A stretch of 64,000 nt of DNA, taken from contig JAJEHQ010000025.1 in the NCBI GenBank assembly GCA_022823625.1, forward strand, positions 62,001 through 126,000. Direction: 5' to 3'. The notes beneath the pieces are model-generated. The model ran no database searches. It was not told where the DNA came from and saw only the letters and a program-made list of their open reading frames with translations. The first letter of the stretch is position 1. Every line of letters begins with the position of its first letter. Below are positions 2,714 to 42,155 of this stretch, in pieces. The position numbers and the translations under genes are program-made. The stretch is from Gammaproteobacteria bacterium (GTDB lineage Bacteria; Pseudomonadota; Gammaproteobacteria; Arenicellales; JAJDZL01).

Positions 2714-2728
2714 TCACTGGCTTGCCAC

Positions 2729-2750
2729 GCGGTATTGACCGCTTTTTGTT
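2729..2750 (+). terminator. Rho-independent terminator of the suf / radical SAM operon
   Basis: GCGGT-attg-ACCGC stem (5 bp, 4-base loop) followed directly by TTTTTGTT, 15 bases after the radical SAM stop. It ends the operon before the convergent quinone oxidoreductase gene. Confidence 0.8.
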
Positions 2751-8527: not shown

Positions 8528-8717
8528 CTCTAACCACAGAAGTGTGAAGAATTCTAATTTTACCCAAATTCGGCCTTGGTCGGCAAATTTGAGAAATCTT
8601 GGATATTTAAGGCCGCTGCGACCTTAGAAGGTGGATTTTTGGGAACAATTTGCAAAATCGGAACAAATACACTTAAAATGCTATTCAGACACAAATTTGT
8701 ACAACAAGAAGTTATGT

Positions 8718-9371
8718 ATGAATCTAACACTGGTTGAAGAGATACTTCTGCTCCTGCTGGACGACGAAAAAGGGACTTTGCCCCCTGTACCACAGTTGAC
8801 ACTACACTTTGTACTGGCAGGCGGAGTGTTGATGGAACTCGCGATCAACAATCGCATTGACAGTCACATTGAAACACTCGATATCATTGATTCAGCGCCA
8901 CTAAACGATCCAATTTTGGATCAGTATCTCGAAAAAATCTGTGCACATCCCGAGCATCAAGATGTAAAGTACTGGATTAACTCCATTGCTGATGACGGAG
9001 CCGAAATAGTTGATCAAGGCTTCAAACGTTTAGTCGAACGGGGGATTCTGGGGGAATCTGAAAAGCGGTTTCTCTGGGTCATGAAAACACGCTCCTATCC
9101 CATGATTGATGGTTCGGTCGAGCGGGAAGTCAAGCTCAGAATTATGAATATTCTGTACAGTGATGAAATTCCCGACCAGAGGGATGTGGTTATATTCTGC
9201 CTGATGGATGCCTGTGACATGTTCCGCACTCTACTGGGGCCAGTCGAACTCAATCGCATGCGACCCAGAATTTCTGACATTTCTAAACTTGACTTGATCG
9301 GTCAGGCAACAACCAAACTGATCCGTGAAATTCAGGTTGCCCTGGTCGCAACCCACGCACCACTCTTCTGA
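8718..9371 (+). CDS. GPP34 (GOLPH3-like) family protein
   Basis: About 217 aa, related to Golgi phosphoprotein 3, a phosphoinositide- and membrane-binding fold also found in some bacteria. The N-terminus has the family pattern LVEEILLLLLDDEKG then LHFVLAGGVLMELAINNRID. I chose ATG 8718, where that pattern starts; upstream in-frame codons to 8631 give family-unlike sequence. It is divergent from the dioxygenase operon with a 190-bp shared promoter region. Function in bacteria is not established; there is no adjacent glycosyltransferase or lipid gene. Assignment to GPP34 is by pattern memory and moderately sure. Confidence 0.7.
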   Translation: MNLTLVEEILLLLLDDEKGTLPPVPQLTLHFVLAGGVLMELAINNRIDSHIETLDIIDSAPLNDPILDQYLEKICAHPEHQDVKYWINSIADDGAEIVDQGFKRLVERGILGESEKRFLWVMKTRSYPMIDGSVEREVKLRIMNILYSDEIPDQRDVVIFCLMDACDMFRTLLGPVELNRMRPRISDISKLDLIGQATTKLIREIQVALVATHAPLF

Positions 9372-9602
9372 AGACCTCGGACCATTCCCGGTCCTCACAA
9401 ATTCGATTTACAACTTGACGCGTTCGGCTTAACGCTGATGGTGTAATTGATTAGTAGACCAAATTATTCCATACCGGAAGCTTTGCTGCATCAATCTGTG
9501 TACTTCATTCATAAAATCAACAGGTCAAAAAACAATTTCAATCTTGACAAGTCCTTTAGTTCTTCAAGAGAACGGTAAGTTGAAATGCGACTCTGTAACA
9601 CC

Positions 9603-26415: not shown

Positions 26416-26742
26416 ATGTCGATAATAGCCAAGTACAAAATTGGTCAGATTGTGCGTCATCGTTTTTTTCCGTTTCGTGGTGTTGTGTTTGACGTCGATC
26501 CTGAATTCAACAATACTGAGGAATGGTATGAGTCCATTCCGGAAGATATTCGACCGCGAAAGGACCAGCCGTTTTACCATCTGCTTGCAGAAAACGAGAA
26601 AAGCAGTTATGTGGCCTATGTCTCGGAACAGAATTTAGTCCCAGACGGAGGTGGCGGTCCGGTGGAGCACCCTGCACTGAATGAAATGTTCGACGACATG
26701 CAGGACGGGGAATACACGATACGATCACACCGCGTTCACTAA
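26416..26742 (+). CDS. hspQ: Heat shock protein HspQ
   Basis: 108-aa small protein of the HspQ/YccV family, which in E. coli binds hemimethylated DNA and acts as a specificity enhancer of Lon protease. Family features: KYKIGQIVRHRFFPFRGVVFDVDPEF at the N-terminus (residues 6-31), then WYESIP, QPFYHLLAE and YVAYVSEQNLV. Length is normal. Followed by a 431-bp region with a repeat. Confidence 0.93.
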   Translation: MSIIAKYKIGQIVRHRFFPFRGVVFDVDPEFNNTEEWYESIPEDIRPRKDQPFYHLLAENEKSSYVAYVSEQNLVPDGGGGPVEHPALNEMFDDMQDGEYTIRSHRVH

Positions 26743-26760: not shown

Positions 26761-26830
26761 TCGATTAGGAGCCAGTTGGCTCCCCTCCCGGAGTGGTGTC
26801 AACCACCCTTTATATATAGTTCTAATGCAG
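26761..26830. repeat. 70-bp direct repeat, copy A (left of the AbiE-like cassette)
   Basis: Aligns without gaps to 29296-29365 with 60 of 70 positions identical, including an unbroken 20-bp block starting GAGTGGTGTCAACC. Contains the hairpin GGAGCC-agtt-GGCTCC (26768-26783) and GTGGT-gtca-ACCAC (26793-26806). Lies 18 bp after the hspQ stop, so it may also act as the hspQ trailer. Together with copy B it brackets exactly the two-gene toxin-antitoxin insert. Confidence 0.85.
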
Positions 26831-27087
26831 GCTCAATTTGAGTGTTTGAGCATTTATGCAATGTGAAGAGTATTGGTACATTGGAGGCCATGTCTTACAC
26901 AACTTATGGAATGACCTTGAATGTAACCCTACAGAGTTTAACCTCGAATGACCGGAATACAATTCTACATCTCCAACTGAGTGTTAGCAACTAGACCTCA
27001 TCGATTGCGAAGGGCACCTATGTCACGTGCTCCAATGCGACTTCTCAGCACAATCAGCCACGAACCATTGCTGAAGTAATTTGAGTA

Positions 27088-27159
27088 ATTCACTGCGCAG
27101 TAAATATAGCATTTATCTTGTATATACGCTATAATCAAGTTATTTACTGCACAGCAAAT
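27088..27159 (+). promoter_or_regulatory. Promoter with twin operator palindromes for the AbiE-like pair
   Basis: Two related 18-bp palindromes, ATTCACTGCGCAGTAAAT (27088-27105) and ATTTACTGCACAGCAAAT (27142-27159), share 15 of 18 positions and are 54 bp apart centre to centre, about five helical turns. A TATAAT -10 box lies between them (27130-27135); the -35 is weak. Known AbiEi antitoxins bind inverted repeats in their own promoter, so these are likely autoregulatory operators. Confidence 0.65.
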
Positions 27160-27173
27160 AAATAAAAAACACT

Positions 27174-28250
27174 ATGCTTGACTCAATCACTACGGAAGAA
27201 CATTTGCTTGACGGTTTGCTCGAAACCTTACAGGAGTTGCCCGAGGCACAGGCTAAATTGAGTGGGACCGAACAGTTGGGGAACTCAGCCCGGAGATATG
27301 ATGCCCAGATTGACTTGTGGGTAGGTAGTAATGAAGCTAAATTGCTCATTGAAATAAAGAAAACCTTGTATCCTCGTGATGTGCAACAGACACTTTGGCA
27401 AATTCGGAATTTTGCAGATCAAACACCGCAATCGGTCTTCTTCTTGGTTGCTCAATCAATTTCACCTGGAGCAAAAGATCTGCTGAGGGAGGAGCAGGTC
27501 GGATACTATGACAGCGGCGGCAGCCTGTTTCTGTATGCCAACAACATCTACGTATACATGGACAAGCCGCCCCCAAAGAGCATGTCGAAATCCATTCGTT
27601 CCTTGTATTCAGGTCGTCGTGCACAAGTTCTGCAAGCGATATTGATGCGTCAGGGCGACTGGTTCAGAGTAAAGGATCTTGCCCAACGAGCGAGGGTATC
27701 ACCAGCGACTGCCTCGCAGGTGCTAATGAAACTGGAAAGGTTCGATTGGGTGGCTTCGCGTGGGCAGGGGCCAAACAAGAAACGCCAACTGCGAGACCCT
27801 AGTGCTTTGCTTGATGCTTGGGTGAATCAACTGGCGATGATGCGGCCTCTTGCTATGCGGAGATACTTTGTGCCCTCGATGCACGCTGAAGGACTGGTGG
27901 AGAAGTTTGCCGAGGTCTGTGCTGAGAAAAATGCCGAGTATGCGATCACTCACGAGGCAGCAGGTCAACGGTACGCGCCCTTTCTGTCGACTATCTCTCA
28001 GGTTCGTTGTCGTATGTTGGCCGGTCCAGCAACGGATGAGGCCCTCAGCGCACTCGATGTTCGATTAGTTGTTCGAGGTGCGAACCTAGCGATTATCGAA
28101 GTCGAGTCGTCTAACGAATTGCTGTTTCGACAGCTCGACAATCGGATCTGGCTTGCAAACCCCGTACAGGTGTATCTCGATCTGATGCGAAGCGAAGGCC
28201 GCGCTAAGGAAATGGCCAGACACCTGCGTAATGAAACGCTTCGATTCTGA
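27174..28250 (+). CDS. AbiEi-like type IV antitoxin / transcriptional regulator
   Basis: 358-aa protein. N-terminal domain (about 35-130) has Asp47 in QIDLW and Glu60-x-Lys62 in LLIEIKKT, the spacing of a PD-(D/E)xK nuclease-like core. A winged helix-turn-helix (about 150-205: FRVKDLAQRARVSPATASQ, then RFDWVASRG) follows, then a C-terminal domain of about 150 residues (LVVRGANLAIIEVESS). This arrangement fits the AbiEi_2 group of type IV antitoxins, which repress their own operon and counteract a nucleotidyltransferase toxin. The next gene starts within its stop codon (TGATG). Flanked by the 70-bp repeats. Family assignment fairly sure; nuclease activity is not. Confidence 0.75.
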   Translation: MLDSITTEEHLLDGLLETLQELPEAQAKLSGTEQLGNSARRYDAQIDLWVGSNEAKLLIEIKKTLYPRDVQQTLWQIRNFADQTPQSVFFLVAQSISPGAKDLLREEQVGYYDSGGSLFLYANNIYVYMDKPPPKSMSKSIRSLYSGRRAQVLQAILMRQGDWFRVKDLAQRARVSPATASQVLMKLERFDWVASRGQGPNKKRQLRDPSALLDAWVNQLAMMRPLAMRRYFVPSMHAEGLVEKFAEVCAEKNAEYAITHEAAGQRYAPFLSTISQVRCRMLAGPATDEALSALDVRLVVRGANLAIIEVESSNELLFRQLDNRIWLANPVQVYLDLMRSEGRAKEMARHLRNETLRF

Positions 28251-29146
28251 TGACGAAACCCACGGCGTTCGACGGTTACAGCAATCAACATACAGTCGAC
28301 TGCGAGCGTGTTCTTGTTACACTCTTGCGCGGACTTGGCCCGTGGAAGAAATCAGTATATCTGGTTGGTGGCTTGGCACCCAGATACCTAGTGGCGGCTA
28401 AGCCACCGGTAGTACCAGCACACACCGGCACGCTGGATGTGGACATCGTTATCGATCTTCAAGTTCTGACTGATACCAAAGGCTATTACACGCTCGAGGA
28501 AAACTTACGGAAAATGAAGTTTGAGCGATCAATAAACAAAAGTGGCCAGAAGCTTTCTTGGCGGTGGCAAACCCGCACGGAACATGGCGCGCCGATCGTG
28601 CTCGACTTCCTCACCGATTCTCCTGAATATTCTGGAGGAAAAGTCGAGCCGTTACCCACGAAAGGCAGGATCTCGGCGCTCAACATTCCACATTCGTCCA
28701 TCGTCTTCGACCTGCACCAAATTTTGGAGATTAAAGCAGAACTTCTTGGAGGCGTAGGTACCGCCACCGAATTTGTGAAACACGCCAATCTAGTGAGCTT
28801 CACTTGCTTGAAAGCGTTCGCTTATGATCAGCGTTTCGAACCAAAGGACGCGTACGACTTAATTTACTGCATTGAGCACGCGGAAGAGGGATTGGACGGT
28901 GCGGCGCAGATGTTCCGCGAAGCTTTGGAGGGCAACCACAGCACTGTAATTCAGGATAGTTTGTCAATTCTTCAAAATCGTTTTGCAGGGGACGAAAAAG
29001 TCGAGGGATATCGAAAAGATGGTCCGGTAGCAGTTGCTCGTTTCGAAATTCCTGAGAGTAACGAGGCTGATCAGAGCGAGCTCCGGATTCTGAGACAGCG
29101 GGAGGTTAATAGCATAATCGAACAACTGTTGGCTCTGATCTTTTAG
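28250..29146 (+). CDS. AbiEii-like nucleotidyltransferase toxin
   Basis: 298-aa protein with the DNA polymerase beta-like nucleotidyltransferase core: Gly40-Gly41 in YLVGGLAPRYL, Asp63 and Asp65 in GTLDVDIVID, and the third acidic residue Asp119 in APIVLDF. The catalytic set is complete, so the enzyme is probably active. Type IV toxins of the AbiEii/MenT kind transfer nucleotides to tRNA or use NTPs to stop growth, often as phage defence. Its start overlaps the antitoxin stop by one base, as expected for a toxin-antitoxin pair. Substrate is not predictable here. Confidence 0.78.
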   Translation: MTKPTAFDGYSNQHTVDCERVLVTLLRGLGPWKKSVYLVGGLAPRYLVAAKPPVVPAHTGTLDVDIVIDLQVLTDTKGYYTLEENLRKMKFERSINKSGQKLSWRWQTRTEHGAPIVLDFLTDSPEYSGGKVEPLPTKGRISALNIPHSSIVFDLHQILEIKAELLGGVGTATEFVKHANLVSFTCLKAFAYDQRFEPKDAYDLIYCIEHAEEGLDGAAQMFREALEGNHSTVIQDSLSILQNRFAGDEKVEGYRKDGPVAVARFEIPESNEADQSELRILRQREVNSIIEQLLALIF

Positions 29147-29463
29147 AAAAGAGCATCGCGCTAAGAGCGGTTTTAGTCGGTATCAACATATATATAGTTC
29201 AAGATTTGGGAGAAATGTGGCTCACGACGCGATACCACGGTGGCGCACGCTTTGTATACCGACACCATTGGAGTGCTGTGGCATGGCGAATCCTGTCGAT
29301 TAGGAACCAGTTAGCTCCCTTCCTAGAGTGGTGTCAACCACCCTTAGTTTAAATTTCTAATGCAGACTTAGTTGATTATCTAAACACCCAAGAATTTTCT
29401 TTGTTTGGAAAATTTTAAACCTTCGTCTGTCGGTTTCACTTGGTTGCCCGTTCAACTGATCAC
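29147..29463. other. 317-bp downstream flank of the AbiE-like cassette
   Basis: Holds repeat copy B and, at about 29183-29200, an AT-rich ATATATAGTTC stretch that also occurs in copy A but not copy B. No gene or clear terminator seen. Confidence 0.55.
29296..29365. repeat. 70-bp direct repeat, copy B (right of the AbiE-like cassette)
   Basis: Same orientation and length as copy A, 86% identical. Differences cluster at positions 51-60 of the repeat. Ends about 100 bp before the stop of the acyl-CoA synthetase gene. The two copies could be an attachment-site duplication, or a dispersed intergenic repeat that mediated gain of the cassette by recombination. Confidence 0.85.
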
Positions 29464-31284
29464 TTAAGCAGTCGCAGTCTCGTCACAATTCAGCTCCTCC
29501 ATCATTTCTTCCCGCATCTTAAATTTTTGCGCCTTGCCGGAAACTGTCATCGGCAACTCGCGTTTGATTCGGATATAGCGAGGAATCTTGTAGTGAGCGA
29601 TTTGATCATTGCAAAAGCTCCTTAGTTCTTCTTCGGTTAATTTACAACCCTCTTTGGGTACAACCCACGCACAAATTTCTTCTCCAAATTTTTTGTCCGG
29701 TACTCCAAATACCTGAACATCTTTAATCTTTTGATTTTTGTAGAAAAAGTCTTCAATTTCTTTTGGATAGACATTCTCACCACCACGAATAACCATATCC
29801 TTAACGCGACCCACCACATTACAGAAGCCTTCGTCATCGAGCACTGCCAAATCTCCGGAGTGCATCCATCCGTGGGAATCTATTGACTCACTCGTTCGTT
29901 CTTCGTCTCCCCAGTATCCCTGCATCACAGAATACCCACGCGTACAGAGTTCGCCAGTTTGCCCAATGGGTACAACATCGCCTTCACTATCTTGAATACA
30001 GCACTCAACATGGGGATGAACCCGTCCAACTGTGGAAACTCGTTTCTCCAATGAATCATCTAAATTGCTTTGAAAAGATACTGGGCTCGTCTCCGTCATC
30101 CCGTAGGCAATCGTTACGTCCTTCATATGCATTTCATTCACGACGCTATTCATCGTTTCAATGGGACAGGGTGCTCCTGCCATGACACCTGTCCTCAGTG
30201 AAGCCAGATCGAAATCAGAGAACGTTTTTTCTGCCAGGATTGCATTGAACATAGTCGGCACACCGTAGAGTGCGGTACACTTTTCCTTTTCGATTGCTGT
30301 TAATGTTTGAACTGGATCAAAACCCTCACCCGGAAATACCATCGTTGCACCTTTGGTTACGCAGCCCAGAGTACCCATTACCATGCCAAAGCAATGGTAA
30401 AGCGGTACGGGAATGCAGAGTCGATCAAGATGCGAAAATTCCATAGTTGCGGTCGTGAAGTGAGCATTGTTCAAAATATTCCTGTGTGTCAGCGTAGCAC
30501 CTTTTGGTGCACCAGTCGTGCCACTGGTGAATTGAATATTTATGGCATCATCAGGGTTCAATCCAGCACTGATGACATCAAGCCGACTCTGATGTGCTGG
30601 CCCTGCCATGGACATTATCTCGTTGAATTTCAGCAGTTTATCAGGAACAGGATTGTCTGTATCTGTTGCCATGCAAGCAACAATTTTTAACGCCGGCACT
30701 CGATCAGAACGAATATTCAAAGTACCTGCTCCCTCACTACTTTGAATGAGTGAGAGAACCATGTCCAGGTAATTGCTGGATTTAAACTCTTGTGCGGTAA
30801 TCAGGGCAACGCATCCCGATGAATTTAGAACATGTTCAAGTTCAGCCAGTCTGTAAGCTGGATTTATCGTGACCAAGATTGCTCCAATTCGGGCTGTAGC
30901 AAACTGAGTGAGAAGCCATTCAGGTCGATTGGGAGACCAAATGCCAATTCGATCACCGCGTTTTAGTCCAATTGCAAGTAAACCCGCCGCCAGGGCATCA
31001 ATTTTCTCTGAAAGAGTTCGCCAGCTCCAGTGAATGCCACAAGCAGGAAATGCCACGGCATCAAGATGAGAATACTTATCAACAGTTTCAGAGAAGAAAA
31101 CTGGGATAGTGGTTTCAATCAGCGGCTGTCGTTTGTCCCCTACAACATGAGAAACTCCCGGTTCTACAAAATGTCGTTCTAAATACTGTTGTGAATTTTC
31201 AGTATTCAGGTCAGGACTCAGAGCAAATTTCGAGTCGAATAATGACTCATTCAGATCTGTAATCGGTGTATCAAGTCCACCCAT
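29464..31284 (-). CDS. Acyl-CoA synthetase (AMP-forming, ACSF2-like)
   Basis: 606-aa adenylate-forming ligase that activates a carboxylic acid to its CoA thioester with ATP. Motifs: P-loop-like FTSGTTGAPKGATLTH, then YGMTETSPVSFQ, GWMHSGDLAVLDDEG, VIRGGENVYPKEIE and C-terminal SGKAQKFKMRE with the catalytic lysine. It most resembles the medium-chain ACSF2-type group. It is the last gene of the ABC importer/amidase operon, 34 bp after the fused ATPase-amidase gene. Amidase followed by acyl-CoA synthetase also occurs in the Pseudomonas aldoxime/nitrile clusters, so the acid freed by the amidase is its likely substrate. Confidence 0.9.
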   Translation of the reverse strand: MGGLDTPITDLNESLFDSKFALSPDLNTENSQQYLERHFVEPGVSHVVGDKRQPLIETTIPVFFSETVDKYSHLDAVAFPACGIHWSWRTLSEKIDALAAGLLAIGLKRGDRIGIWSPNRPEWLLTQFATARIGAILVTINPAYRLAELEHVLNSSGCVALITAQEFKSSNYLDMVLSLIQSSEGAGTLNIRSDRVPALKIVACMATDTDNPVPDKLLKFNEIMSMAGPAHQSRLDVISAGLNPDDAINIQFTSGTTGAPKGATLTHRNILNNAHFTTATMEFSHLDRLCIPVPLYHCFGMVMGTLGCVTKGATMVFPGEGFDPVQTLTAIEKEKCTALYGVPTMFNAILAEKTFSDFDLASLRTGVMAGAPCPIETMNSVVNEMHMKDVTIAYGMTETSPVSFQSNLDDSLEKRVSTVGRVHPHVECCIQDSEGDVVPIGQTGELCTRGYSVMQGYWGDEERTSESIDSHGWMHSGDLAVLDDEGFCNVVGRVKDMVIRGGENVYPKEIEDFFYKNQKIKDVQVFGVPDKKFGEEICAWVVPKEGCKLTEEELRSFCNDQIAHYKIPRYIRIKRELPMTVSGKAQKFKMREEMMEELNCDETATA

Positions 31285-31318
31285 ATTTTCTCTACCTCAT
31301 TGGTTCAAATTAACCGCA

Positions 31319-33649
31319 TTACCGATCTTTCCAGTCTTTCTGTTGCTCGAATGCATACGCGGCGCGATAAATCGTTGATTCTTCGAAGTGTCTGCCAATC
31401 AACATCATTCCAATTGGCAAACCTTCTCGCAGTGCACACGGCACATTCATTGCTGGATGTCCAGTGCAACTAAATGGCGTAGTATTCGGAATCATTTCGA
31501 AGGCGCGTTGAATGTAGAGTGAAAGTGGTGCATCCGGCGGAGGGAGCAGAGTCGCTTTCATCGGTAGGGTAGGCATCAACAACAGGTCATACCGTTGCAG
31601 TTCAATATCGTAGGCACGTCTGAGTCTTCGGGAAATATTCTGTGCCTTTCCATAGTATCGACCGCGGTAGTGTTTCTGAAAATATTCTCCGATAAGCATA
31701 TTTATTTTCAGGCTTGGGGAAAGTTCGTCTGCTCTAGATCTCCAGTTCCCATAAAAATCGATTAAGCTCGTAATAAAAAGCCCGCGGTAGTTGGTACCGA
31801 ATGAATTTCCATGCATCATGAAGTCCGTTAAACCTTCAACAGCAATTGGAGTCCATATTGCACTGCCAAGTTTGTGAATAGGTATGGAAATCTCATCGAC
31901 TTCAGCGCCTAAATTCTTTAATGATTCTCCGGCCAGGCGAACAGCATCGCTGACATCCCTCTCACTTGTGGGCCAATCAAACGCTTCCGAAACAATTCCG
32001 ATTCGCAAGTCTGATATTCCTCGCGAAATCTGACCGGTGTAGTTATCCGTCCGAGGAGCATATTGACGTGGGTCGAGCAAGTCATCACAGCCTGCTATTG
32101 CTTCAAGTAACAGGGCGTTGTCTAAAACGGTTCCCGTCATTGGACCAATGGTGTCAATTGTCGCTTCTATCGACATGACACCGGTATAAGGTACAAGTCC
32201 GTGCGTTGGTTTAATTCCATAACACCCCGACCAAGATGATGGGATACGAATGGATCCCCCTTGATCACCCCCAATTGCCATGGGAACCTCTCCTGAACCG
32301 ACCAGTGCACCGCATCCTGATGAAGAGCCACCTGACGAATGTGTAGGTTTCCAAGGATTTCGAACCGGCCCCGTCGAATTCGTATGACTTCCTCCGGACA
32401 GGCAAAGACTCTCACAGTGTGCCTTTCCTACAATTGTGCCGCCAGCGTTAAGAATTCTCGAAACCACCGTCGCATCAACGTCAGGAACGTATCCTTCAAG
32501 AACTGAGGTACCGTTCATCATGCGTACACCAGCAAGACAAATGGTATCTTTCAAGACTACCTCTTTGCCCGCGAGCGGTCCACTGGGTTCTCCACGCACC
32601 TCACATTTCATATACCAGGCATTTAAAGGGTTGTCAGTTGCATCAGGCTGGTAACCACCGGTTCTTGGATATTGCACATTGGGAAGTTCATCAGGTAAGG
32701 AATCGACAATATCGTAGGCATCGAGTGTACCCTGCATCAGTTTCAGATAATCTTCAACTTCAGAATCATCCATGTGCATGTGGAGTTCACTCGCTATGGT
32801 ACGAACTTGATTAAAAGTAGGACGTTTTACTGTCATTGACTTCTCCGTGGACTCTGGCTCTTGAATTTCAGAGAGAGCGCTTATCGTGGGATTTAGATTA
32901 GGGTGTTGCGATCTTTGTGAGTCTGAAGCATCCGGCATTGCAGTTGGTTTTGCACGCACTGGATTTCCCTTATTCTCCTGCTCAACAATTGCACCGTTTT
33001 CGATGCGGATTACTTGATCAGCCAAAGAACGAATGAAATCAGAATTTTGCTCAACGAGAACTATGGTGAGTCCTGTATCAGCACGAATTTCGGAAAGGAT
33101 TTCTGAAATTTGTTTCACGAGCGATGGCTGAATTCCTTCAGTAGGTTCATCCAGCAGGAGTAACACCGGTTCAGCGATTAACGCTCGCGCGAGTGCTAGT
33201 ATCTGTTGTTCACCACCACTGAGTGTGCCGCCGGTTTTTTTCAGCAAAGGATCCAGAATCGGAAATCGATAAATTGCGTTTTTTACAGCGCCTTGCTCAC
33301 TACTATCTGATGTATCCGGATTGTGCGCCATACAAAGGTTGTCCTGCACTGTCAAGTCACTGAAAATTCCCCGTCCCTGCGGTAAATAGCCAATTCCCAA
33401 TCGGGCTCTCTGCCACGGTTCAAGATTTGATATGTCCCTGTCGTCAAATCGAACTGAACCACTAAACAGTGGAATGAATCCCATCAACGTTCGCAGCAAC
33501 GTTGTTTTTCCCATTCCATTAAGTCCAAGTATTCCGATACATGCTCCTTCTTCGACTTGAAGGTTGACATCGTGCAAGACCGGGACACCGTGGTAACCTG
33601 CTCTGACGCCTTGAGCCGATAGTATGTAGTTTGCGTTAACTTCAGTCAT
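31319..33649 (-). CDS. Fusion: LivF/UrtE-type ABC ATPase + amidase-signature hydrolase
   Basis: 776-aa single reading frame. Residues 1-232 are a complete LivF/UrtE ATPase: Walker A GLNGMGKT (42-49), PQGRGIF, signature LSGGEQQ (143-149), Walker B LLLLDEP (163-169). A polar linker (about 233-271) leads to a full amidase (272-776). Its Ser-cisSer-Lys triad is intact: Lys367 in VVLKD, Ser442 in HSSGGSSSG, Ser466 in GGDQGGSIRIP, with the 75- and 24-residue spacings of Rhodococcus nitrile-cluster amidases. Residue 272 is a Met codon (32836) preceded by GGAGAA 4 bases away, so free amidase could also be made. Starts 5 bp after the livG-type gene. ATPase and hydrolase in one chain is highly unusual; an assembly-made lost stop is the alternative. 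Confidence 0.88.
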   Translation of the reverse strand: MTEVNANYILSAQGVRAGYHGVPVLHDVNLQVEEGACIGILGLNGMGKTTLLRTLMGFIPLFSGSVRFDDRDISNLEPWQRARLGIGYLPQGRGIFSDLTVQDNLCMAHNPDTSDSSEQGAVKNAIYRFPILDPLLKKTGGTLSGGEQQILALARALIAEPVLLLLDEPTEGIQPSLVKQISEILSEIRADTGLTIVLVEQNSDFIRSLADQVIRIENGAIVEQENKGNPVRAKPTAMPDASDSQRSQHPNLNPTISALSEIQEPESTEKSMTVKRPTFNQVRTIASELHMHMDDSEVEDYLKLMQGTLDAYDIVDSLPDELPNVQYPRTGGYQPDATDNPLNAWYMKCEVRGEPSGPLAGKEVVLKDTICLAGVRMMNGTSVLEGYVPDVDATVVSRILNAGGTIVGKAHCESLCLSGGSHTNSTGPVRNPWKPTHSSGGSSSGCGALVGSGEVPMAIGGDQGGSIRIPSSWSGCYGIKPTHGLVPYTGVMSIEATIDTIGPMTGTVLDNALLLEAIAGCDDLLDPRQYAPRTDNYTGQISRGISDLRIGIVSEAFDWPTSERDVSDAVRLAGESLKNLGAEVDEISIPIHKLGSAIWTPIAVEGLTDFMMHGNSFGTNYRGLFITSLIDFYGNWRSRADELSPSLKINMLIGEYFQKHYRGRYYGKAQNISRRLRRAYDIELQRYDLLLMPTLPMKATLLPPPDAPLSLYIQRAFEMIPNTTPFSCTGHPAMNVPCALREGLPIGMMLIGRHFEESTIYRAAYAFEQQKDWKDR

Positions 33650-33654
33650 CGCAC

Positions 33655-34368
33655 TTAATTGCTGCCGAGATATACCTTTTTTACACTCTCGTTCTGAAAT
33701 ACCTGATCAGGCGAACCCACTGCCAAAATACGTCCCTTGTGAAACACAGTTACGGATTCGGCAATCATTCGTACAAAACGCGTGTTGTGCTCAACGACAA
33801 GAATTGCTGTTTGGTTTTTGAGTTGCTGCAAAATCGAACTGAGTTCATCCACTTCTGTTTCAGATAACCCGGCAGCTGGTTCGTCCAACAACAAAATAGA
33901 AGGCTTGGTCGCCAAAGCGGAAGCAAGTTCGACATACTGTCGATGTCCATGTGCCAGATCTGAAACCAAAGAAATTCGATTTTTTTCAATTCCAGTGAGA
34001 TTCATCAGCGTTTCAACAATGTCCTCTGCTTCTCTAGCCGAGTGACGACATCGAGCGGCTATCCACAGATTTTCTTCAACACTTAGGCCTTCAAGTAGAT
34101 TGGGCACCTGCATTTTGATTCCTACACCGAGACGCGCAACTCGGTGGGCAGGGAGCCGTGTCGCTTCGTAACCGTTAATCCACACCCGACCTGAAGAAGG
34201 GCGAACAACACCAGATATTGCTTTGAAAAAAGTGCTTTTCCCAGCACCATTGGGTCCGATTAGACAATGCAATTCTTGACGTTTCAACGAAAAACTTACA
34301 TTGTCTACAGCCAATACTCCACCGAAACTGACGTTAAGCCCCTCTACTGATAGTACTGTCTCAACCAC
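33655..34368 (-). CDS. ABC transporter ATPase, LivG/UrtD family
   Basis: 237-aa ATPase of a branched-chain amino acid/urea/amide-type (HAAT) importer. Walker A GPNGAGKST, the LivG-type Q-loop region GVGIKMQVPNLLEGLSVEENL, signature-like LAHGHRQYVELA (LAHGH replaces the usual LSGGQ, as in UrtD-type proteins) and Walker B ILLLDEPAAGLSE are visible. It pairs with the LivF-type domain of the next gene to form the ATPase dimer. 22 bp after the LivM-type permease, which is frameshifted. Confidence 0.9.
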   Translation of the reverse strand: MVETVLSVEGLNVSFGGVLAVDNVSFSLKRQELHCLIGPNGAGKSTFFKAISGVVRPSSGRVWINGYEATRLPAHRVARLGVGIKMQVPNLLEGLSVEENLWIAARCRHSAREAEDIVETLMNLTGIEKNRISLVSDLAHGHRQYVELASALATKPSILLLDEPAAGLSETEVDELSSILQQLKNQTAILVVEHNTRFVRMIAESVTVFHKGRILAVGSPDQVFQNESVKKVYLGSN

Positions 34369-34390
34369 CGTAAGATTCTCGATATATGAG

Positions 34391-35457
34391 TTAATCGTTA
34401 CTCAGTTTTTCTTGGGTACGATTGGACCGGGTCTGCCATTTACCTTTCTTTTTTGAACTGAGAAATGAAACTCGACGTCCCATAAAAGCACCGGCTATGC
34501 CCCTTGGGAATACCAGAACTGCTGTAATCAGTAAAATTCCCATGACAAAGAAATTGTCAACCACCGTTTGATGGCCCAACCCGAGCTTCAGCGCTGTTAG
34601 TACGGCCGACCCTATCATTGGACCAAATAGTGTGCCGAGCCCACCAACCACCGTCCAGATGATGATTTCTGCTGATACAGTCAAGCTGAAAAGATTGGGA
34701 GTGACGATACCAGCCCAGTTTGCGTAGAGCACACCTGCCATTGCGGCAAGTCCTCCTGAAATCGAGAATGCAGCCGTCTTGTAGAGCCGAACGTCATATC
34801 CCGTCAGTTCGACGCGTTCTTCATTTTCTCGAATGGCGACCAACACCCGACCAAAGTGGGAACGTAAGATCCAACGACAGAACACCCACGATATTACCAA
34901 GACGACGCAACATAGTATGTAAAACACCATGTCTGAAAGAAAAGCCGCGTCGCTCCATGGAAAATTTAAGGTTGGAAAGCCTGGTATACCATTGAAGCCC
35001 CCAAGCGCGCTGACCCGATTTGATACTCCGGCCCTGCGGTTGAATTCAAGAATCGATTCAAGATCAAAGTGAATACAAGCGTAACTACTGCCAGATACAC
35101 ATCGCCCAATCGGCCATAAAACATGGCCGCTCCAAAGCAGGTGGTGACCAGTACAGTAAAAACGATGGCAAATAAAACAGATGTCCACGGTAGTCCAAAA
35201 TTGATTGAGAAAATTACGTAACTGTAGGCACCGATTCCAAAAAAAGCGCCTTGTCCGAAACAGAGAATGCCTCCGAATCCCCAAATCAGTCCCAGGCTGA
35301 TTGCAAGCAATGCATAAACACACAAAAGTGAAAGCGTATAGGTACTGGCGAATACTGGAGCGAATAGAAATACCGGTGTACCACATACTATTGGTACAAA
35401 AAAGACGTGAGTAAACCCGCCTGTGTGTTGAGACGTCACTTCCCACTCCTTTGCCAT
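34391..35457 (-). pseudogene. LivM/UrtC-type permease with an apparent one-base frameshift
   Basis: Membrane permease of the importer, split over two frames. The first frame (35457 to about 35000) gives the N-terminal half with membrane segments (LSLLCVYALLAISLGLIWGF; VVTLVFTLILNRFLNSTAGP). The second (from about 35002 to 34391) gives LGGFNGIPGFPTLNF, then the C-terminal half ending with GGLGTLFGPMIGSAVL and MGILLITAVLVFPRGIAG. The join lies in a run of five G on the coding strand (34998-35002); six G would read SARLGGFNGIPG without interruption. Both halves are otherwise undamaged, so this is a recent mutation, a consensus/assembly error, phase variation, or a -1 slip. The other genes of the operon are intact. 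Confidence 0.85.
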
Positions 35458-36302
35458 ATGCTTGAAATTCCTAATGGAAACAGGCGAAGCAAAATGAGTG
35501 CTGCAATTAATAGTGCAATACCTCCGGCAGCGGAACTGAAGATCAAAACAGTTGATGTCGATACAACCCCGAGAATTCCAGCACTTGCCAAGGTTCCCAG
35601 CAACGGAGCGGTGCCTCCAGTGATTACTGTGATGAACGCATCAGCTATCCAGGTGGCTCCACTGAATGGTGAGACACCAGTTGTTGGGGCCAATATTCCG
35701 CCTGCCAACCCCGCGAGCATACCACCGACGACGAATGTCACCATGGAGATACGTTTAACTGGATAGCCAAATGCTTGGGTCATATCGCGATTTTGCATCG
35801 CGGCTCTGGCAATACGACCATAAACAGTTCCATAGAGTACCCAAGCAACCAAGATTGATGTTACTGCCGCCGAAAAAATAAGAAATAAGTTGTATCCATT
35901 GACCTGATAAACTCCTATGGGTATTGAACCTATATCGAGAGCAACTCCTTCAGTTGTATTGCCAAATATCATGGTCAAACCACCAGTCATCGCAAGGCTT
36001 AATCCCCACGTTGCCAGCATGGTATAGATTAGCCTTCCATACAGAAATCGGATTATCACTCGCTCAATCAAGAGACTCCAGACACCCACTACAAGTGGTG
36101 CCATCACCAGCATTGCAACCCAAATGTTGAACCCCGCTTTGGTTGCCATAATCGTCGCATAACCCCCGAGTGTTATGAATTCACCATGAGCGAGATTAAT
36201 GATTCGCATCATGCCGAATACCAGCGCGAGACCGAGCGAGATCAACGTCAATACCGCCACCGCATAGATAATTTGAATTGCAAAAATGAATGCAATATCC
36301 AC
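35436..36302 (-). CDS. ABC transporter permease, LivH/UrtB family
   Basis: 288-aa inner-membrane permease with about eight hydrophobic segments. Family signatures are LALVFGMMRIINLAHGEFITLGGY near the start, RAAMQNRDMTQAFGYPVKRISMVTFVVGGMLAGLAGGILA in the middle (about 165-205), and GGTAPLLGTLASAGILGV. Its 3' end overlaps the LivM-type gene by 22 bases. With the LivM-type protein it forms the membrane channel of the importer. The 196-bp gap after the binding-protein gene contains a stable hairpin. Confidence 0.93.
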   Translation of the reverse strand: MDIAFIFAIQIIYAVAVLTLISLGLALVFGMMRIINLAHGEFITLGGYATIMATKAGFNIWVAMLVMAPLVVGVWSLLIERVIIRFLYGRLIYTMLATWGLSLAMTGGLTMIFGNTTEGVALDIGSIPIGVYQVNGYNLFLIFSAAVTSILVAWVLYGTVYGRIARAAMQNRDMTQAFGYPVKRISMVTFVVGGMLAGLAGGILAPTTGVSPFSGATWIADAFITVITGGTAPLLGTLASAGILGVVSTSTVLIFSSAAGGIALLIAALILLRLFPLGISSIWQRSGK

Positions 36303-36459
36303 AGTAAAAACCTGAAAATTCAGAACGTCTGATTACACTTTTAACGTTTGGGTATTGAGAAAAACTTCACCGAAAACAAATTCTGGTGGAGCATTGGTTT
36401 GATGAAACACCCGGGAATGGCGTCGCAAGAATTACACTCTTTAATTCGATCAACGAGTT

Positions 36460-36484
36460 GAAGGCGGCGTAAGTCGCCGCCTTC
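36460..36484 (-). promoter_or_regulatory. Intercistronic stem-loop after the binding-protein gene
   Basis: Perfect 10-bp stem GAAGGCGGCG / CGCCGCCTTC with a 5-base loop, 15 bp beyond the stop of the binding-protein gene. No T run follows on the minus strand, so it is more likely an mRNA 3'-end stabiliser or partial terminator that keeps binding protein in excess over the membrane subunits, as in other ABC operons. Confidence 0.6.
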
Positions 36485-36498
36485 TTCACCCAATCGTG

Positions 36499-37734
36499 TT
36501 AGAGAGTTATTTCGTATTGCACATTTGAGTCAGGATTTTCAGTCAGATTGCAGACACTTTGGGTATCCACCGGCTCTCTTTGCGCAAAACTCTTAACAAT
36601 ATTCATCTGCTGGTTTTGGATCTCCATGACATGAATGTCCAGTTTACAGTGGTGAGTGGCGGGGTCCATTTCCACTCTTCCAGATGGCCCGACAATTGAA
36701 GCGCCACTTTCCAGTACTGTGGTAATGGCCGAACGTTCAACAGATCCAGCTTGTTCGACTGCATGCGCCCATAACAATATGCCCTGGTATTGAGATACAG
36801 CGATTTCGTGGATGTCATCCGTGTTTCCGTGTTTGGCTGTCCATGCCTCAAGAAACGCTTTGTTTTCAGCAGAATCAATTTGCGGAGCCCAGTTATTGGC
36901 AACAAGCATGCCATTACTTTGTACCGCTGGCAGTACCTTATGTTCGTTGCCAACACCAAATGTAGTCGAAATCAAGTGAACATCAGGGTTAGCATGCATA
37001 CCCGAGCCTAACCACTCGCTGTAGAAACTCAGTTGAGCAGCACCTACCAGGACCGATACAACCAGTTCACTCCCTGACTCCTGAATTTTTGCAATTGCAG
37101 CAGGGCCAAATTCACCATCGCTTAAATCGAAAAACTCTACCTCAACATCAGTTGCACCGTTTTGTTCTGCATACCTCTTGACCCAGGCCGCAGTAATTTG
37201 GCCATAGTTGTAGTTTGCTGCGAGCACGTACAGTTTTTTTGCTCCATAAGCATTCATGGCGTGAGGGATTAAGGCTTCAACCTGCTGAGCTGGCGTTGTA
37301 CCGGTCACAAATGTGTTTCCGTCACAAACTCCACCTTCATACAGAACGTTATAGAAGTAAGGAATCTCTCGCTGCCGTAGTGTCTGTCGTATAGCCTCAC
37401 GGGAAGCAGACAGAATTCCACCATGAAATACGTCCAACCCCTGTCTCACCATTTGATTGGCGAATGTCGTATAGTTGGCCATATCTGACTGAGTGTCTCG
37501 AAATACGATTTCTACTTCCCTTCCCAGCAGTCCACCGCCCTCATTAATGGATTCGACAGCCAATTGAGATGCCTTTTCCATCGGAATGCCATATGCACTG
37601 AATGGCCCGGAAGTGTCAAGCAGCATTCCCAACCGGATAGGTTTGGATTGTGCATGAGAAATATACGGTACTGCCATCAATGCACCAACCGCTGAGCCAG
37701 TGCCGATCAAGAAATTTCGTCGATTAATATTCAT
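36499..37734 (-). CDS. Periplasmic substrate-binding protein, amide/urea type (FmdD/UrtA/AmiC-like)
   Basis: 411-aa periplasmic-binding-protein of the HAAT importer. N-terminal MNINRRNFLIGTGSAVGALMAVPYISHAQS has a twin-arginine-like RRNFL motif and a cleavable signal. The mature part begins KPIRLGMLLDTSGPFSAYG and includes NVLYEGGVCDG and VLAANYNYGQ, matching the amide/urea-binding subgroup (Peripla_BP_5) rather than leucine-binding LivK. It decides the substrate of the importer: short amides, urea-like or related compounds. 39 bp after the flotillin gene and upstream of the permease genes. Confidence 0.9.
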   Translation of the reverse strand: MNINRRNFLIGTGSAVGALMAVPYISHAQSKPIRLGMLLDTSGPFSAYGIPMEKASQLAVESINEGGGLLGREVEIVFRDTQSDMANYTTFANQMVRQGLDVFHGGILSASREAIRQTLRQREIPYFYNVLYEGGVCDGNTFVTGTTPAQQVEALIPHAMNAYGAKKLYVLAANYNYGQITAAWVKRYAEQNGATDVEVEFFDLSDGEFGPAAIAKIQESGSELVVSVLVGAAQLSFYSEWLGSGMHANPDVHLISTTFGVGNEHKVLPAVQSNGMLVANNWAPQIDSAENKAFLEAWTAKHGNTDDIHEIAVSQYQGILLWAHAVEQAGSVERSAITTVLESGASIVGPSGRVEMDPATHHCKLDIHVMEIQNQQMNIVKSFAQREPVDTQSVCNLTENPDSNVQYEITL

Positions 37735-37773
37735 CGTTCCTCCGAAATGTGTAAATGATTGGTTAAGAATGAT

Positions 37774-39342
37774 TTAGGATTGATCCTTCTCGTCGCTATC
37801 AGATTCTTCTGGTAGATCAGTTGAAATTTCAGTTCCAACGGCCTTACCTAGTTTGCGAATTGCCGGCATACGGAAAGCCAGGTCCAATACATCGTCAACG
37901 GCTGAACCTAATCCGCCGGTACGGTCTCCACCTGACGATTCCCTTGAGAGACCAGAAATCTGGTTGATGTTTATTTTTCCGATCTTTTCAAGAGGCTGGG
38001 CCATCCGTGCGGCCATCTCTGGTAAGATTTGCAGACGCTGTTCCTCTAACTTCATAGCCTGCAGAGGAGCGCTAATTGCATTTTCAGCTGCAATCATTGC
38101 ACTACGCTTCTCAACTTGTACCTGTGTTTTCTTTCTCTCCCTTTCAGTCTGGAGGTCAGCGATTCTGTCCTGATTTTCCGCTGTAATCATTGCTGCTGCT
38201 GCACTGGATTTAGCGCGTTCAATTTCAACTTCAGCTTCCTGTTCAGCTTTCAGTGCTTCAATGATTCCTTCACTTTCAGTGGCTAGTCTGCGTCTCTCAC
38301 GCTTAGTCTCCTCTTCCGCGGCAACAACAGCTCTTTTGCTGACTTCTGTCTGCGCTAGTGCCGCTGATTCTTCACTACGACGGGTAGCCAATTCGATCTG
38401 GCTGTTGATTCTGTTCTCTTCCACAACCTTAAGAGAAAGAATTTCTTCTGTTCTCAGTTCACGGTCCCGTTCAATCTCTGCGCGTCGCACCTCTGATTCC
38501 CTGGTCAGACGAGCGAGTCCAGCCGCCGATTGGGCGCGTTCTCGCTCTTCTGCGGTACGACGTGAATTTTCAGAACTCAATTGTTCCGACTTGATCGATT
38601 TTTCAGACTCCGCCTGCTCCTGTTCCAGTTCCAAAGCCAAGCGGGTTTTGGTGGTTTCCAGTTCGGTACGTCGAATCGCCGTCTCCGCATTTGCTTCGAT
38701 CTCCTTACGCTTACGACGGTTTGTAGTGATTATTTCAGCGAGCCGCCGCATTCCAACGGCATTGAACGCGTTGTTTTCATCCAAAGCTGCAAATGGGGTT
38801 TGGTCTAGTTCCGTTACAGATACAGATTCAAGCTGTAGGCCTATGTTTTCAATACCAGACCGCAGCAATTCCGCCACTTCACTGGCAAATAAAGGCCGAT
38901 TTTCATGAAGTTCGTCCATCGTCCGCGTCGCTGCAACGGCCTGCATGGCATCAAAGAAACGCCCACGCAGAAATTCGCTAAGACGCTCTGTTGAAAGTGA
39001 CCGAGCACCAATGGTTTGAGCAGCTGTCGCAATTCCATCCTTGGTAGGAATCACCCGCACATGGAATGCAACATTGACATCGACTCTTAGTCGGTCGCTA
39101 GTCAATAGGGATTGCTCACCCCGCCTGGAAACATCGACATAAAATGTACGCATGTCTACTACTTCTACCTGATGAAGAAACGGTAGAACCAAGCATCCCG
39201 CGTCCATCACTGTCTTCTGACCACCCGCGCCCGTTCGAATCAATGCACGGTCTCGCGATCCTTTGTGATAGAACCGATTCAGAATAACGATTCCTATCGC
39301 AACAAAGAGTAAAGTCAGAACAACAGCAATTACCCACTCCAT
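37774..39342 (-). CDS. Flotillin-like SPFH-domain membrane protein
   Basis: 522-aa flotillin. One N-terminal membrane segment (VIAVVLTLLFVAIGIVILNRFY, residues 4-25), an SPFH/band 7 domain (about 30-200), a long charged coiled coil rich in Glu, Arg and Ala (about 210-430) and a C-terminal region (KIGKININQISGL, then an acidic tail). Flotillins organise membrane microdomains and scaffold complexes. The usual NfeD partner is not adjacent; instead the gene lies 39 bp upstream of the amide-binding protein gene on the same strand, so it is probably co-transcribed with the importer. A role in assembling the transporter is inference. Confidence 0.9.
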   Translation of the reverse strand: MEWVIAVVLTLLFVAIGIVILNRFYHKGSRDRALIRTGAGGQKTVMDAGCLVLPFLHQVEVVDMRTFYVDVSRRGEQSLLTSDRLRVDVNVAFHVRVIPTKDGIATAAQTIGARSLSTERLSEFLRGRFFDAMQAVAATRTMDELHENRPLFASEVAELLRSGIENIGLQLESVSVTELDQTPFAALDENNAFNAVGMRRLAEIITTNRRKRKEIEANAETAIRRTELETTKTRLALELEQEQAESEKSIKSEQLSSENSRRTAEERERAQSAAGLARLTRESEVRRAEIERDRELRTEEILSLKVVEENRINSQIELATRRSEESAALAQTEVSKRAVVAAEEETKRERRRLATESEGIIEALKAEQEAEVEIERAKSSAAAAMITAENQDRIADLQTERERKKTQVQVEKRSAMIAAENAISAPLQAMKLEEQRLQILPEMAARMAQPLEKIGKININQISGLSRESSGGDRTGGLGSAVDDVLDLAFRMPAIRKLGKAVGTEISTDLPEESDSDEKDQS

Positions 39343-40056
39343 ATTTGTTTTCCTCCCGCCACTCGGAATAAACCGTCCGAAGAATTGGTGCCGACTGTGA
39401 ATATCAACCCATGCAAAACAGTTCGAACAGATTGATCTTCATCATGAATTAGTATCTGAACATATTAGTTGCTTTATATATTATTTCCATTTCAATTAAT
39501 ATTTGATTTAATTTTTCAGCAATTACTGGTTGCTCAATTTCCCATTGAAACAATGAAGAACCAATGAACGTATAGCGGAAGCTTGTAATGTACTCGTGCA
39601 GACTGGGTTGACTGTCAGTACAGCAACTTATGACTGAATCTAGCGCAGCGAAAGGCCATTGCCTTCGGCCTTAAGGTCATCCGACCTAATCTCTAGATTC
39701 TCTTCTTCAGCCTATGTCGGCGTCAGAACTGTCGTAGTGGAGAGTAGGCGACATTTGACGGTTACCGGTGCCACAGTTTTCGAAACTCGAAAGTGAAAAC
39801 TGCTTGTAAAAGCACGGCTTTTATATTCTGAAGTTGTTCAGTGTGGAACGAGGGCTCCTCAGAATCTGAATGCTGCTGTCAAAATTAGTTTGAGTTTGTA
39901 CCGAGAATCGGTTGGGGTTGGGGAGTTAAGGTAAGGAAAATTTTATTGACAGATTCCTCTTCAAACAGGGTCGCCAAACTTCAGCCTCTTGAAGGGCGTA
40001 TCTGCCACGCGCCGACTGAACTTCACTTTGAATCGGACTCTGCAACCGATACAAAA
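39343..40056. other. 714-bp structured spacer between the AmiC-like and flotillin genes
   Basis: No gene seen. In 39652-39823 five hairpins follow one another: AAGGCC/GGCCTT (39652-39672, with AAGGC-catt-GCCTT as a competing fold), AGGTC/GACCT (39674-39687), CGTCA..TGTCG / CGACA..TGACG (39721-39760), CAGTTTTC/GAAAACTG (39774-39802) and TAAAAGC/GCTTTTA (39807-39823). On the minus strand this would be a long leader of the flotillin-importer operon, 310-480 bases ahead of its first gene, or the trailer of the AmiC-like gene. The AT-rich part nearer flotillin (39440-39540) probably holds a promoter. Confidence 0.55.
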
Positions 40057-41199
40057 TTATGGATTCAGCACCTCCTGTACTGCAAACTCATAACCTTCGG
40101 CTTCAGCAAGGTAAACAGGGCAAGTTACTGACCTCTTCTGACTCTGCCAGCGTGCCTGCCTTGGTCCGGGTACTGAAAGCTCATGCAGGGAATCAGAATC
40201 TGAACCTGTAGTCTGTCGTGTGTTAATTTGGTATCTACCATCCTGAATACATTTGGCGAGGAAATGGGCACCTTCGTAAACTGATTCAGCAAGTGCATTC
40301 AGAGTCGGGGCGGATTCTCCGAAATGCTGATGATAAGACTCTTTGAATTTTTCATTGGCCGAGGAAGGAATCTGATTGAAATATCCAGATGAACAGAACA
40401 ATCTCTCTGTATGGTCTGCGCCAATTCCAAGCAGCATATTCTCTTCAACAGCGCACGATAGACGGATCGTATGTGCTGCCAAACCAGCACGAGAGAATTC
40501 TCGATTAAATCTTACGCTATCGTCGCCCACGAGAGACAAAAGCACAACGTCGGGTCGATGTTCTTCCAGTCCTTGAAGAGATTTCTCAAATTTTTTGGTG
40601 CCTAAGGGATGGTACGTTTCAAATACTACACTCGCTCCAAATAACTCAAGAAGACGATGAGTGAGTTTATGGCTGCGATGTGGCCAAACATAATCGTTGC
40701 CAATTAAGGCCCAACGTTGCGAATGATGTTGGGTCATAAACCATGAAACGGCCGGAAACAGTTGAGTTTGCGGCGTTTCGCCAATACAACAAACGTGGCT
40801 GGAATTCACACCGCCTTCATATAGCGGGGTATAGATATATGGAATGCGTCCTTTCAAACTTTCTACGATCGCTTCCCTCACGTCCGAGGTATGCATGCCA
40901 ACGATCGCGTCAATTACATTTGTATTGGCAAGAACTTTAGCCAATCTCGCCACATTTTGCGGATTCCCACCAGAATCGACGATGTGGGGAACCACCTCCA
41001 TACCCAGAATCCCTCCCGTGGTATTGATCTCATGAACAGCTAGTTCTCCACATGCTCGACAGGAAGGTCCCCAAATTCCGGCCGGACCACTTTGAGGAAC
41101 AAATAAACCAAGTACGAATATCTTTCGCTCTACTGGCAGAGCGAACTGCTGGCCTGTTAATCTACTAGCCTTATTGCGACTGGCCGAATATGTACTCAT
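40057..41199 (-). CDS. AmiC-like amide sensor (binding-protein fold, no signal peptide)
   Basis: 380-aa protein of the same fold as the amide-binding protein at 36499 (IPYIYTPLYEGG here, IPYFYNVLYEGG there). It lacks an N-terminal signal peptide: the first 28 residues are polar and basic (MSTYSASRNKASRLTGQQ) before IFVLGLFVPQSGPAG. This matches AmiC of Pseudomonas, a cytoplasmic amide sensor that controls the amidase operon by sequestering the antiterminator AmiR. No AmiR (ANTAR) gene is visible nearby; a MarR-type regulator lies 109-110 bp upstream instead. The binding-protein paralogue with a different job is the alternative. Confidence 0.75.
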   Translation of the reverse strand: MSTYSASRNKASRLTGQQFALPVERKIFVLGLFVPQSGPAGIWGPSCRACGELAVHEINTTGGILGMEVVPHIVDSGGNPQNVARLAKVLANTNVIDAIVGMHTSDVREAIVESLKGRIPYIYTPLYEGGVNSSHVCCIGETPQTQLFPAVSWFMTQHHSQRWALIGNDYVWPHRSHKLTHRLLELFGASVVFETYHPLGTKKFEKSLQGLEEHRPDVVLLSLVGDDSVRFNREFSRAGLAAHTIRLSCAVEENMLLGIGADHTERLFCSSGYFNQIPSSANEKFKESYHQHFGESAPTLNALAESVYEGAHFLAKCIQDGRYQINTRQTTGSDSDSLHELSVPGPRQARWQSQKRSVTCPVYLAEAEGYEFAVQEVLNP

Positions 41200-41308
41200 A
41201 CGAAAATTTACATCGCCAATAGTTAACGCAGGATTCCAATTGGTCTAATTCAATTAACGAATATTGATTCATACATTGGGAACTTCGTTGAAATTTACCT
41301 CGACTCGC

Positions 41309-41743
41309 TCACTCCTGAGAAGACGGGGTGATTACAACGGGCTTCTGATCAATTCGTTCCAGTTTTTCAAGCACCACGCGCGTATGCGAATCCAACACTT
41401 CTGAAATCAATGCTCGAAAAGCCCGTACTTCAGGAAGGCATTTTTCCAAGGTATCCTTGCCGTGATCAGAAATGAATAACTGAATACTACGCCGGTCTAC
41501 ATTACTTTGTTTGCGATGAATCAGCGCGTTTCGGACCAACCGGTCCACCAGTTTGGATAGTGCGGGAATCTTGATATCGGTCTGCTGGGAAAGTTCTTTT
41601 AAAGTGAGCCCAGGATTTTCGTTGAGTGTCTCAATAACCCGCCAAGTGCTCGGAGTTGTTCCCTTAACTTTCAGACACTCCTCAAACTTTGTTGCTACCG
41701 CATGGTAGGCAGATTCGATAACTTTTTCCGGTTTGTTGAGCAT
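41309..41743 (-). CDS. MarR-family transcriptional regulator
   Basis: About 144 aa from ATG 41743; the frame is open to a GTG at 41806, which would add 21 residues. Neither start has a clear ribosome-binding site. The winged helix is evident: STWRVIETLNENPGLTLKELSQQTDIKIPALSKLVDRLVRNALIHRKQSNVDRRSIQLFISDHG (about residues 31-95), with the DxR wing typical of MarR. Dimeric repressors of this family usually respond to small aromatic or acidic ligands. Its position upstream of the AmiC-like gene suggests control of the amide operon. A 12-bp palindrome lies just upstream. Confidence 0.85.
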   Translation of the reverse strand: MLNKPEKVIESAYHAVATKFEECLKVKGTTPSTWRVIETLNENPGLTLKELSQQTDIKIPALSKLVDRLVRNALIHRKQSNVDRRSIQLFISDHGKDTLEKCLPEVRAFRALISEVLDSHTRVVLEKLERIDQKPVVITPSSQE

Positions 41744-41806
41744 TTTGATTTTTGATAAATATCTTGTGTTGAAACCGTGCAGTATCCGATTAATTGCAAA
41801 CTTCAC

Positions 41807-41818
41807 TATACTCGTATA
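41807..41818. promoter_or_regulatory. Possible MarR operator
   Basis: Palindrome TATACTCGTATA immediately upstream of the longest possible marR frame; a plausible autoregulatory site of a MarR dimer, but short and in AT-rich sequence. Confidence 0.3.
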
Positions 41819-42155
41819 TTCGGATTCATTTCCAGTTCGTTCTATTTTCGCATTTTACTCTTACGGAATTTTTCAATACTACTATAGCCGAAAGTGACGT
41901 TCGTACCTAAACCTGAATTCGCGTTCGGCTCTATGCTGTAATTGTGATACGTGATCGGTTTCAATTTCTTCAGGCAAATATTTCGAATCTTCGATTTGGT
42001 CTTCTTCTGCGTTGTCATTCAATCAGTTGTCTTAGGAATGCTTCATGTGAATGCGCAATCAGGTGACAATCAATTCTGTAGCATTCCTACTTGGTTATCG
42101 AATTAAAATTTGTCTGAATATCCCAAAATTCTATTGGCACTCCTTCCGATTGATC
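41819..42155. other. 337-bp spacer between divergent marR and pcm-like genes
   Basis: No gene or known element recognised. Presumably holds the promoters for both directions. A reading frame enters from 42051 but only extends the methyltransferase upstream with family-unlike residues. Confidence 0.5.

Follow-up and report, generated by a model that had tools for sequence, protein, structure and literature searches.

An AbiE-Type Toxin–Antitoxin Operon between 78-bp Direct Repeats beside hspQ: Probably a Single Acquisition with Duplication of the Target Spacer

Introduction

How does a toxin–antitoxin (TA) operon that carries neither an integrase nor a transposase come to lie between two long direct repeats on a bacterial chromosome? 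This question is raised by a locus in a 64,000-nucleotide stretch of gammaproteobacterial DNA, the whole of which is referred to here as the window. An earlier note had described the locus as a defence cassette that entered by repeat-mediated or trans-acting recombination. The present analysis locates the repeat in the target instead: a single acquisition of an AbiE-type operon, with duplication of about 78 bp of the target and with the repeats as its scar, is regarded here as the probable history. The locus documents the settlement on a chromosome of a type IV TA operon that has no integrase or transposase of its own, and a sister genome shows the site unoccupied.

Direct Repeats and the Insert between Them

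The two repeats, R1 (26761–26838, + strand) and its direct-repeat partner R2 (29296–29373, + strand), had been noticed as a gap-free pair of 70 bp in the same orientation with 60/70 identities. This is correct, and the likeness extends further, to 78 bp, over which the two copies lie on the same strand without gaps, are identical at 65/78 positions and share an identical run of at most 20 bp. In the comparison of one flank with the other, the match has a blastn E value of 9e-19, and the 18-mer in the repeat core occurs twice in the window, where 0.05 matches would be expected. The 78-mer has no third copy in the 3.18-Mb genome (44 contigs); the repeat is not spread through intergenic regions, and a genome-wide intergenic family, with two copies only, is ruled out. 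Moreover, no third or degenerate copy over the full length is present inside the insert, and no other long repeats are found between hspQ and pcm.

Between R1 and R2 lies an insert of 2,457 bp with the two-gene operon inside. The earlier note had the repeats fitting the two genes and their promoter exactly, which needs a small correction, as there are a further 250 bp upstream (26839–27088), with no recognised homologue, and 149 bp past the toxin gene (29147–29295), with no recognised content. The part with homologues elsewhere, i.e., operator, promoter and operon, runs from the first operator to the toxin stop codon (27089–29146). As had been stated before, no integrase or transposase is found among the ORFs of the insert, and its ends carry no inverted pairs. 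Insertion by a transposon was considered and rejected on these two grounds (no transposase-like ORF and no inverted pairs at the ends) and because the repeats measure 78 bp instead of forming a short duplication; we know of no transposon that leaves target duplications as long as this. The GC content of the cassette (0.50–0.51, against 0.48 for the window) does not mark it as foreign by composition.

The repeat begins directly past hspQ and lies between convergent genes. R1 is part of the 3′ spacer of hspQ and contains a terminator-like hairpin, GTGGT-GTCA-ACCAC, at 26793–26806. The best conserved part of the repeat is GTGGTGTCAACCAC, after which comes a weak run of T, and it is scored as terminator-like in both R1 and R2, such sites being no commoner here than in shuffled sequence. 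An Rfam scan of the window gave no match, and the repeat therefore does not belong to any catalogued RNA. The simplest reading is that the repeat holds a terminator inside a spacer that is otherwise unconstrained. A 12-bp match, TATATATAGTTC, also exists between R1 (26811–26822) and about 29187–29200, downstream of the toxin gene; it is AT-rich and too simple to weigh, R1 departs from both R2 and the copy of the nearest congener at these positions, and the match may be due to chance in AT repeats.

The Empty Site in the Nearest Congener

The left neighbour of the insert is hspQ (YccV-like; 26416–26742, + strand; PF08755, E 2.5e-31), and the right neighbour is an AMP-binding acyl-CoA ligase-like gene (29464–31284, − strand; PF00501), which is convergent with hspQ. 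The genome of the window (G000) was compared with its five congeners (G001–G005). In G005, the nearest of them, hspQ is 95% identical in nucleotides (96% in protein) and adjoins the ligase gene, and the hspQ-side and ligase-side flanks meet in one single copy of the repeat without any insert (L027 1429–1479). This copy lies about 20 bp downstream of the G005 hspQ, is the best match to the repeat among 100 relatives, and can still form the hairpin. At the DNA level, the insert was not found in any of the five congeners, and in G001–G004 hspQ adjoins pcm. The proposed insertion at this place, with hspQ on one side and an unrelated operon on the other, is thus borne out by an unoccupied site that holds exactly one copy of the repeat. 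Since G005 has the empty site and the other four congeners have no insert, the TA insertion is specific to the lineage of the window among the genomes available, one of which, G005, shows the empty site.

A ligase/ABC operon of about 13 kb (acyl-CoA ligase, ABC transporter genes and amidase; 29464–42050) lies between hspQ and pcm. It includes a 776-aa ORF (31319–33649) in which a LivF/UrtE-like ABC ATPase is fused to an amidase, and which aligns without gaps in G005 at 93% amino acid identity. This operon is present at hspQ in G000 and, over the part of the contig read, in G005. The hspQ–pcm junction has therefore received two separate additions, and the TA insertion is the later one, because the ligase/ABC operon is found in both genomes and the TA pair only in G000.

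The same comparison decides to which side the repeat belongs. The 78-mer was not found in any of 45 related TA loci, and both it and its core are absent from viral contigs, phages and plasmid collections. Because G005 has the repeat without cargo and no related TA locus has it, the repeats are native target sequence; that they are the ends of the TA element is rejected on account of their absence from all related loci, and a cassette moved by its own repeats is not supported.

The Toxin–Antitoxin Gene Pair

The operon is bicistronic with the antitoxin gene first, and the stop codon of the antitoxin overlaps the start codon of the toxin at 28250; this order and spacing are the same in intact relatives. 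Its assignment to the AbiE-type type IV TA systems of the AbiEi_2 kind, an already known kind, is supported by sequence motifs and fold, in agreement with the earlier note.

The AbiEii-like nucleotidyltransferase (NTase) toxin (28250–29146, + strand) has 298 aa. The residues G40, G41, D63, D65, K188, R195, K199, D200 and D203 are invariant in all 27 family sequences, and these nine match motifs I–IV of AbiEii (pattern GG..DhD, KxxAxxxR, +DxxD) according to Dy et al. 2014 (PMC3985639). PF08843 is detected in 7 of the 27 toxin members (best 5e-4), the toxin of the window itself being below the cut-off. A search of the PDB by sequence gave no informative match for the toxin, and Foldseek alone gave weak matches, while a second aligner placed MenT toxins first. 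In the latter comparison, the AlphaFold model of the toxin (pLDDT 78.5) matches MenT1 best (Z 11.7 over 179 residues, 3.9 Å), followed by NTase-like proteins of Paracoccidioides and Helicobacter and by TglT (Z about 10.5). Judged from the model, the toxin is predicted to have the AbiEii/MenT NTase fold.

The AbiEi-like antitoxin and putative autoregulator (27174–28250, + strand; 358 aa) is recognised by PF09952 in the family, by its model and by fold matches. PF09952 (AbiEi_2) is detected in 18 of the 28 antitoxin members, and the antitoxin of the window alone scores 18.3 bits against a cut-off of 21. In its model (pLDDT 89.3), three domains can be distinguished: a PD-(D/E)XK-like domain (about residues 1–130), which resembles the nuclease domain of NucS/EndoMS (Z 8.4–8.6), a winged helix-turn-helix (wHTH) domain (about 145–210), which is supported by fold matches, and a C-terminal domain (about 236–358) with an NTase-like fold (MenT1, Z about 10.6). 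In the subgroup, the first domain corresponds to 27174–27563, and its catalytic-type residues are not strictly kept: D43, E60 and K62 are retained in 26, 23 and 23 of 28 members, with K replaced by R in five, and P67-R68-D69 beside them is invariant. The nuclease-like domain may thus serve binding or structure, and would not be required as a nuclease.

Ahead of the antitoxin start codon are two dyads, TTCACTGCGCAGTAAA (27089–27104, 85 nt before the start codon and conserved in relatives) and TTTACTGCACAGCAAA (27143–27158, 31 nt before it), which are 54 bp apart. Two copies of their element, TTYRCTGNNCAGYRAA, occur at this place in the window and in most relatives, at a distance of 54 bp in most, and the upstream homology among relatives starts at this element. 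It has been reported that both AbiEi (PMC3985639) and Rv2827c (PMC7319586) repress their own operons via paired operators; therefore, autorepression by the antitoxin at the two dyads is to be expected by analogy.

Spread of the Operon

The TA pair is found in 7 of 369 genomes of the class and is otherwise scattered among Proteobacteria and single Verrucomicrobiota, Latescibacterota and other MAGs. In addition, it is present on 85 plasmid records, 45 of which are typed as conjugative; viral contigs gave no relatives of the toxin. In the tree of both proteins, the window groups with alphaproteobacterial, Pseudomonadales and Latescibacterota MAG loci (support 99/95 and 100/99). Horizontal acquisition of the operon is well supported by its rarity in the class, its presence on plasmids and its place in the tree.

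Among the related loci, long flanking direct repeats occur in two only, each with a repeat of its own. In L103 (Allofranklinella), the relative lies after dxs and is preceded by a 75-bp copy, 91% identical, of the 3′ end of its own toxin gene (L103:4618–4692 and 6835–6909); the toxin gene there is frameshifted, and the locus looks like a decayed tandem duplication. In L105, a direct repeat of 805 bp with 71% identity lies 1.7 kb to either side of the TA pair (about 2400–3200 and 8600–9400), and its copies are probably paralogous genes.

Divergence of the Repeats and the Mode of Entry

R1 and R2 differ at 13/78 sites (17%), and the fourfold-site divergence between G000 and G005 is 281/1694, i.e., 16.6%. 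Since the two values are equal, the insertion is not recent but old. The same equality suits the reading that the cassette was ancestral to G000 and G005 and was lost in G005 by recombination between the repeats, as the duplication could match the age of the split, and a deletion of this type leaves exactly one copy. The product of such a deletion should, however, match R1 or R2 about as well as the flanks match, whereas the G005 copy differs from them at 22–25 sites (28–32%), which is above the fourfold sites (p 0.013 and 0.001). The other four congeners are also without the insert, though with a different right neighbour. Ancestral presence with loss is accordingly held to be distinctly improbable.

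The high divergence from G005 is itself in need of explanation: within the 12 kb compared between G000 and G005, no 60-bp stretch is less conserved than the element. The private changes number 8 in R1, 5 in R2 and 17 in G005, and three equal branches are rejected (p 0.02). R1 and R2, together with the 18-bp spacer beside hspQ, are 61–76% identical to G005, against 87–95% for the flanks. This fits a fast-evolving spacer, and it also fits an import of R1, insert and R2 as a block, that is to say, the arrangement hspQ–repeat–TA–repeat would already have existed in another congener and would have been carried over by homologous recombination between flanking sequences. Should the spacer accumulate changes more quickly than fourfold sites do, the duplication postdates the split of G000 and G005; if it does not, the duplication is of about the age of the split, and the block may have been imported. 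The 20 bp of unbroken identity that remain between R1 and R2 would probably not suffice for efficient excision by homologous recombination. We regard block import as unlikely: constraint in any case ends at the hspQ stop codon, which is where the divergence begins, a search for a donor genome found none, and the reading merely shifts the first insertion to another species.

A further reading would have a circular cassette integrated by a tyrosine recombinase acting in trans; the two copies of the 78-bp element would then represent attL and attR, and crossover would take place in the hairpin core. The empty site is single-copy, R1 and R2 have the same orientation, and a 13-bp core with a 5-bp dyad is identical in R1, R2 and G005. 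Besides, the host has an integrase pair on another contig (C22:73592–74745) and two strong recombinases of XerC/XerD size. Entry of this kind, on the other hand, predicts host-like outer arms and foreign inner arms, and of the 30 variable sites there are 17, spread over both arms, at which R1 and R2 agree with each other and differ from G005. Because this agreement covers the whole length, site-specific entry is disfavoured and duplication of the target is favoured. The site is also absent from other loci and collections, the insert has no integrase, and the hairpin is equally explained as the hspQ terminator, so that this mode of entry is quite unlikely. The broader proposal that a recombinase acting in trans uses the 78-bp element as a genuine recombination site, at which TA or defence cassettes without an integrase are loaded beside hspQ in this genus, must be considered very improbable; if true, such a site would constitute a minimal system of integration distinct from integrons and from elements that exploit Xer.

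The course of events under a single acquisition with target duplication can then be proposed. A horizontally spreading AbiE-type operon of the AbiEi_2 kind would have been acquired once by the lineage of the window and would have settled in the spacer that separates the convergent hspQ and acyl-CoA ligase genes. As a result of integration, the 2.46-kb insert would have come to be flanked on each side by about 78 bp of the target spacer; the route may have been break repair with re-synthesis, template switching, or a single crossover with a circle in which that stretch was present. Both copies, each with the terminator-like hairpin of hspQ, would afterwards have diverged to 83% identity, and the repeats would be the scar of this event, not the ends of a self-mobile cassette. 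As in AbiE, the antitoxin would bind the two promoter dyads and repress the promoter, and it would neutralise a nucleotide-transferring toxin whose target is probably tRNA. The outcome may be addiction and possibly growth arrest induced by phage. Toxicity, antitoxicity and the RNA target are presumed here, and a role in defence is suggested by the family.

Comparison with Known Systems

Integron cassettes and integrase-less Xer-exploiting elements resemble the insert as small TA-bearing units with direct repeats and without an integrase of their own. Unlike these elements, the insert does not form part of an array, and by inspection the repeat shows neither an attC-like core nor a dif-like site; the repeat of the window is native to one chromosomal spot.

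The second system to be compared is MenAT of Mycobacterium tuberculosis, since the model of the toxin aligns with MenT1 (Z 11.7) and with TglT/Rv1045 (Z about 10.5). Sequence identity to the MenAT toxins is low (12–22%), and MenA1 is a short antitoxin unrelated to that of the window (PMC11375011).

The closest likeness in kind is to AbiE (AbiEi_2, or COG4861–COG4849), with which the operon shares the two-gene arrangement with the antitoxin first, a wHTH antitoxin with an AbiEi-type C-terminus, an NTase toxin with motifs I–IV, paired candidate operators ahead of the operon and occurrence on plasmids. The likeness of the antitoxin to COG4861, of which Rv0837c is a putative antitoxin member in M. 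tuberculosis (PMC7319586), is itself putative and one of kind only. There are some differences within this frame: compared with AbiEii of S. agalactiae, the spacing from motif I to DxD is longer; compared with the two-domain AbiEi of COG5340, an additional PD-(D/E)XK-like domain is present at the N-terminus of the antitoxin; and compared with AbiE, each operator is itself a dyad. The operon delimits a large plasmid-borne subgroup of AbiE, which stands out by an operator of two dyads and an antitoxin of three domains.
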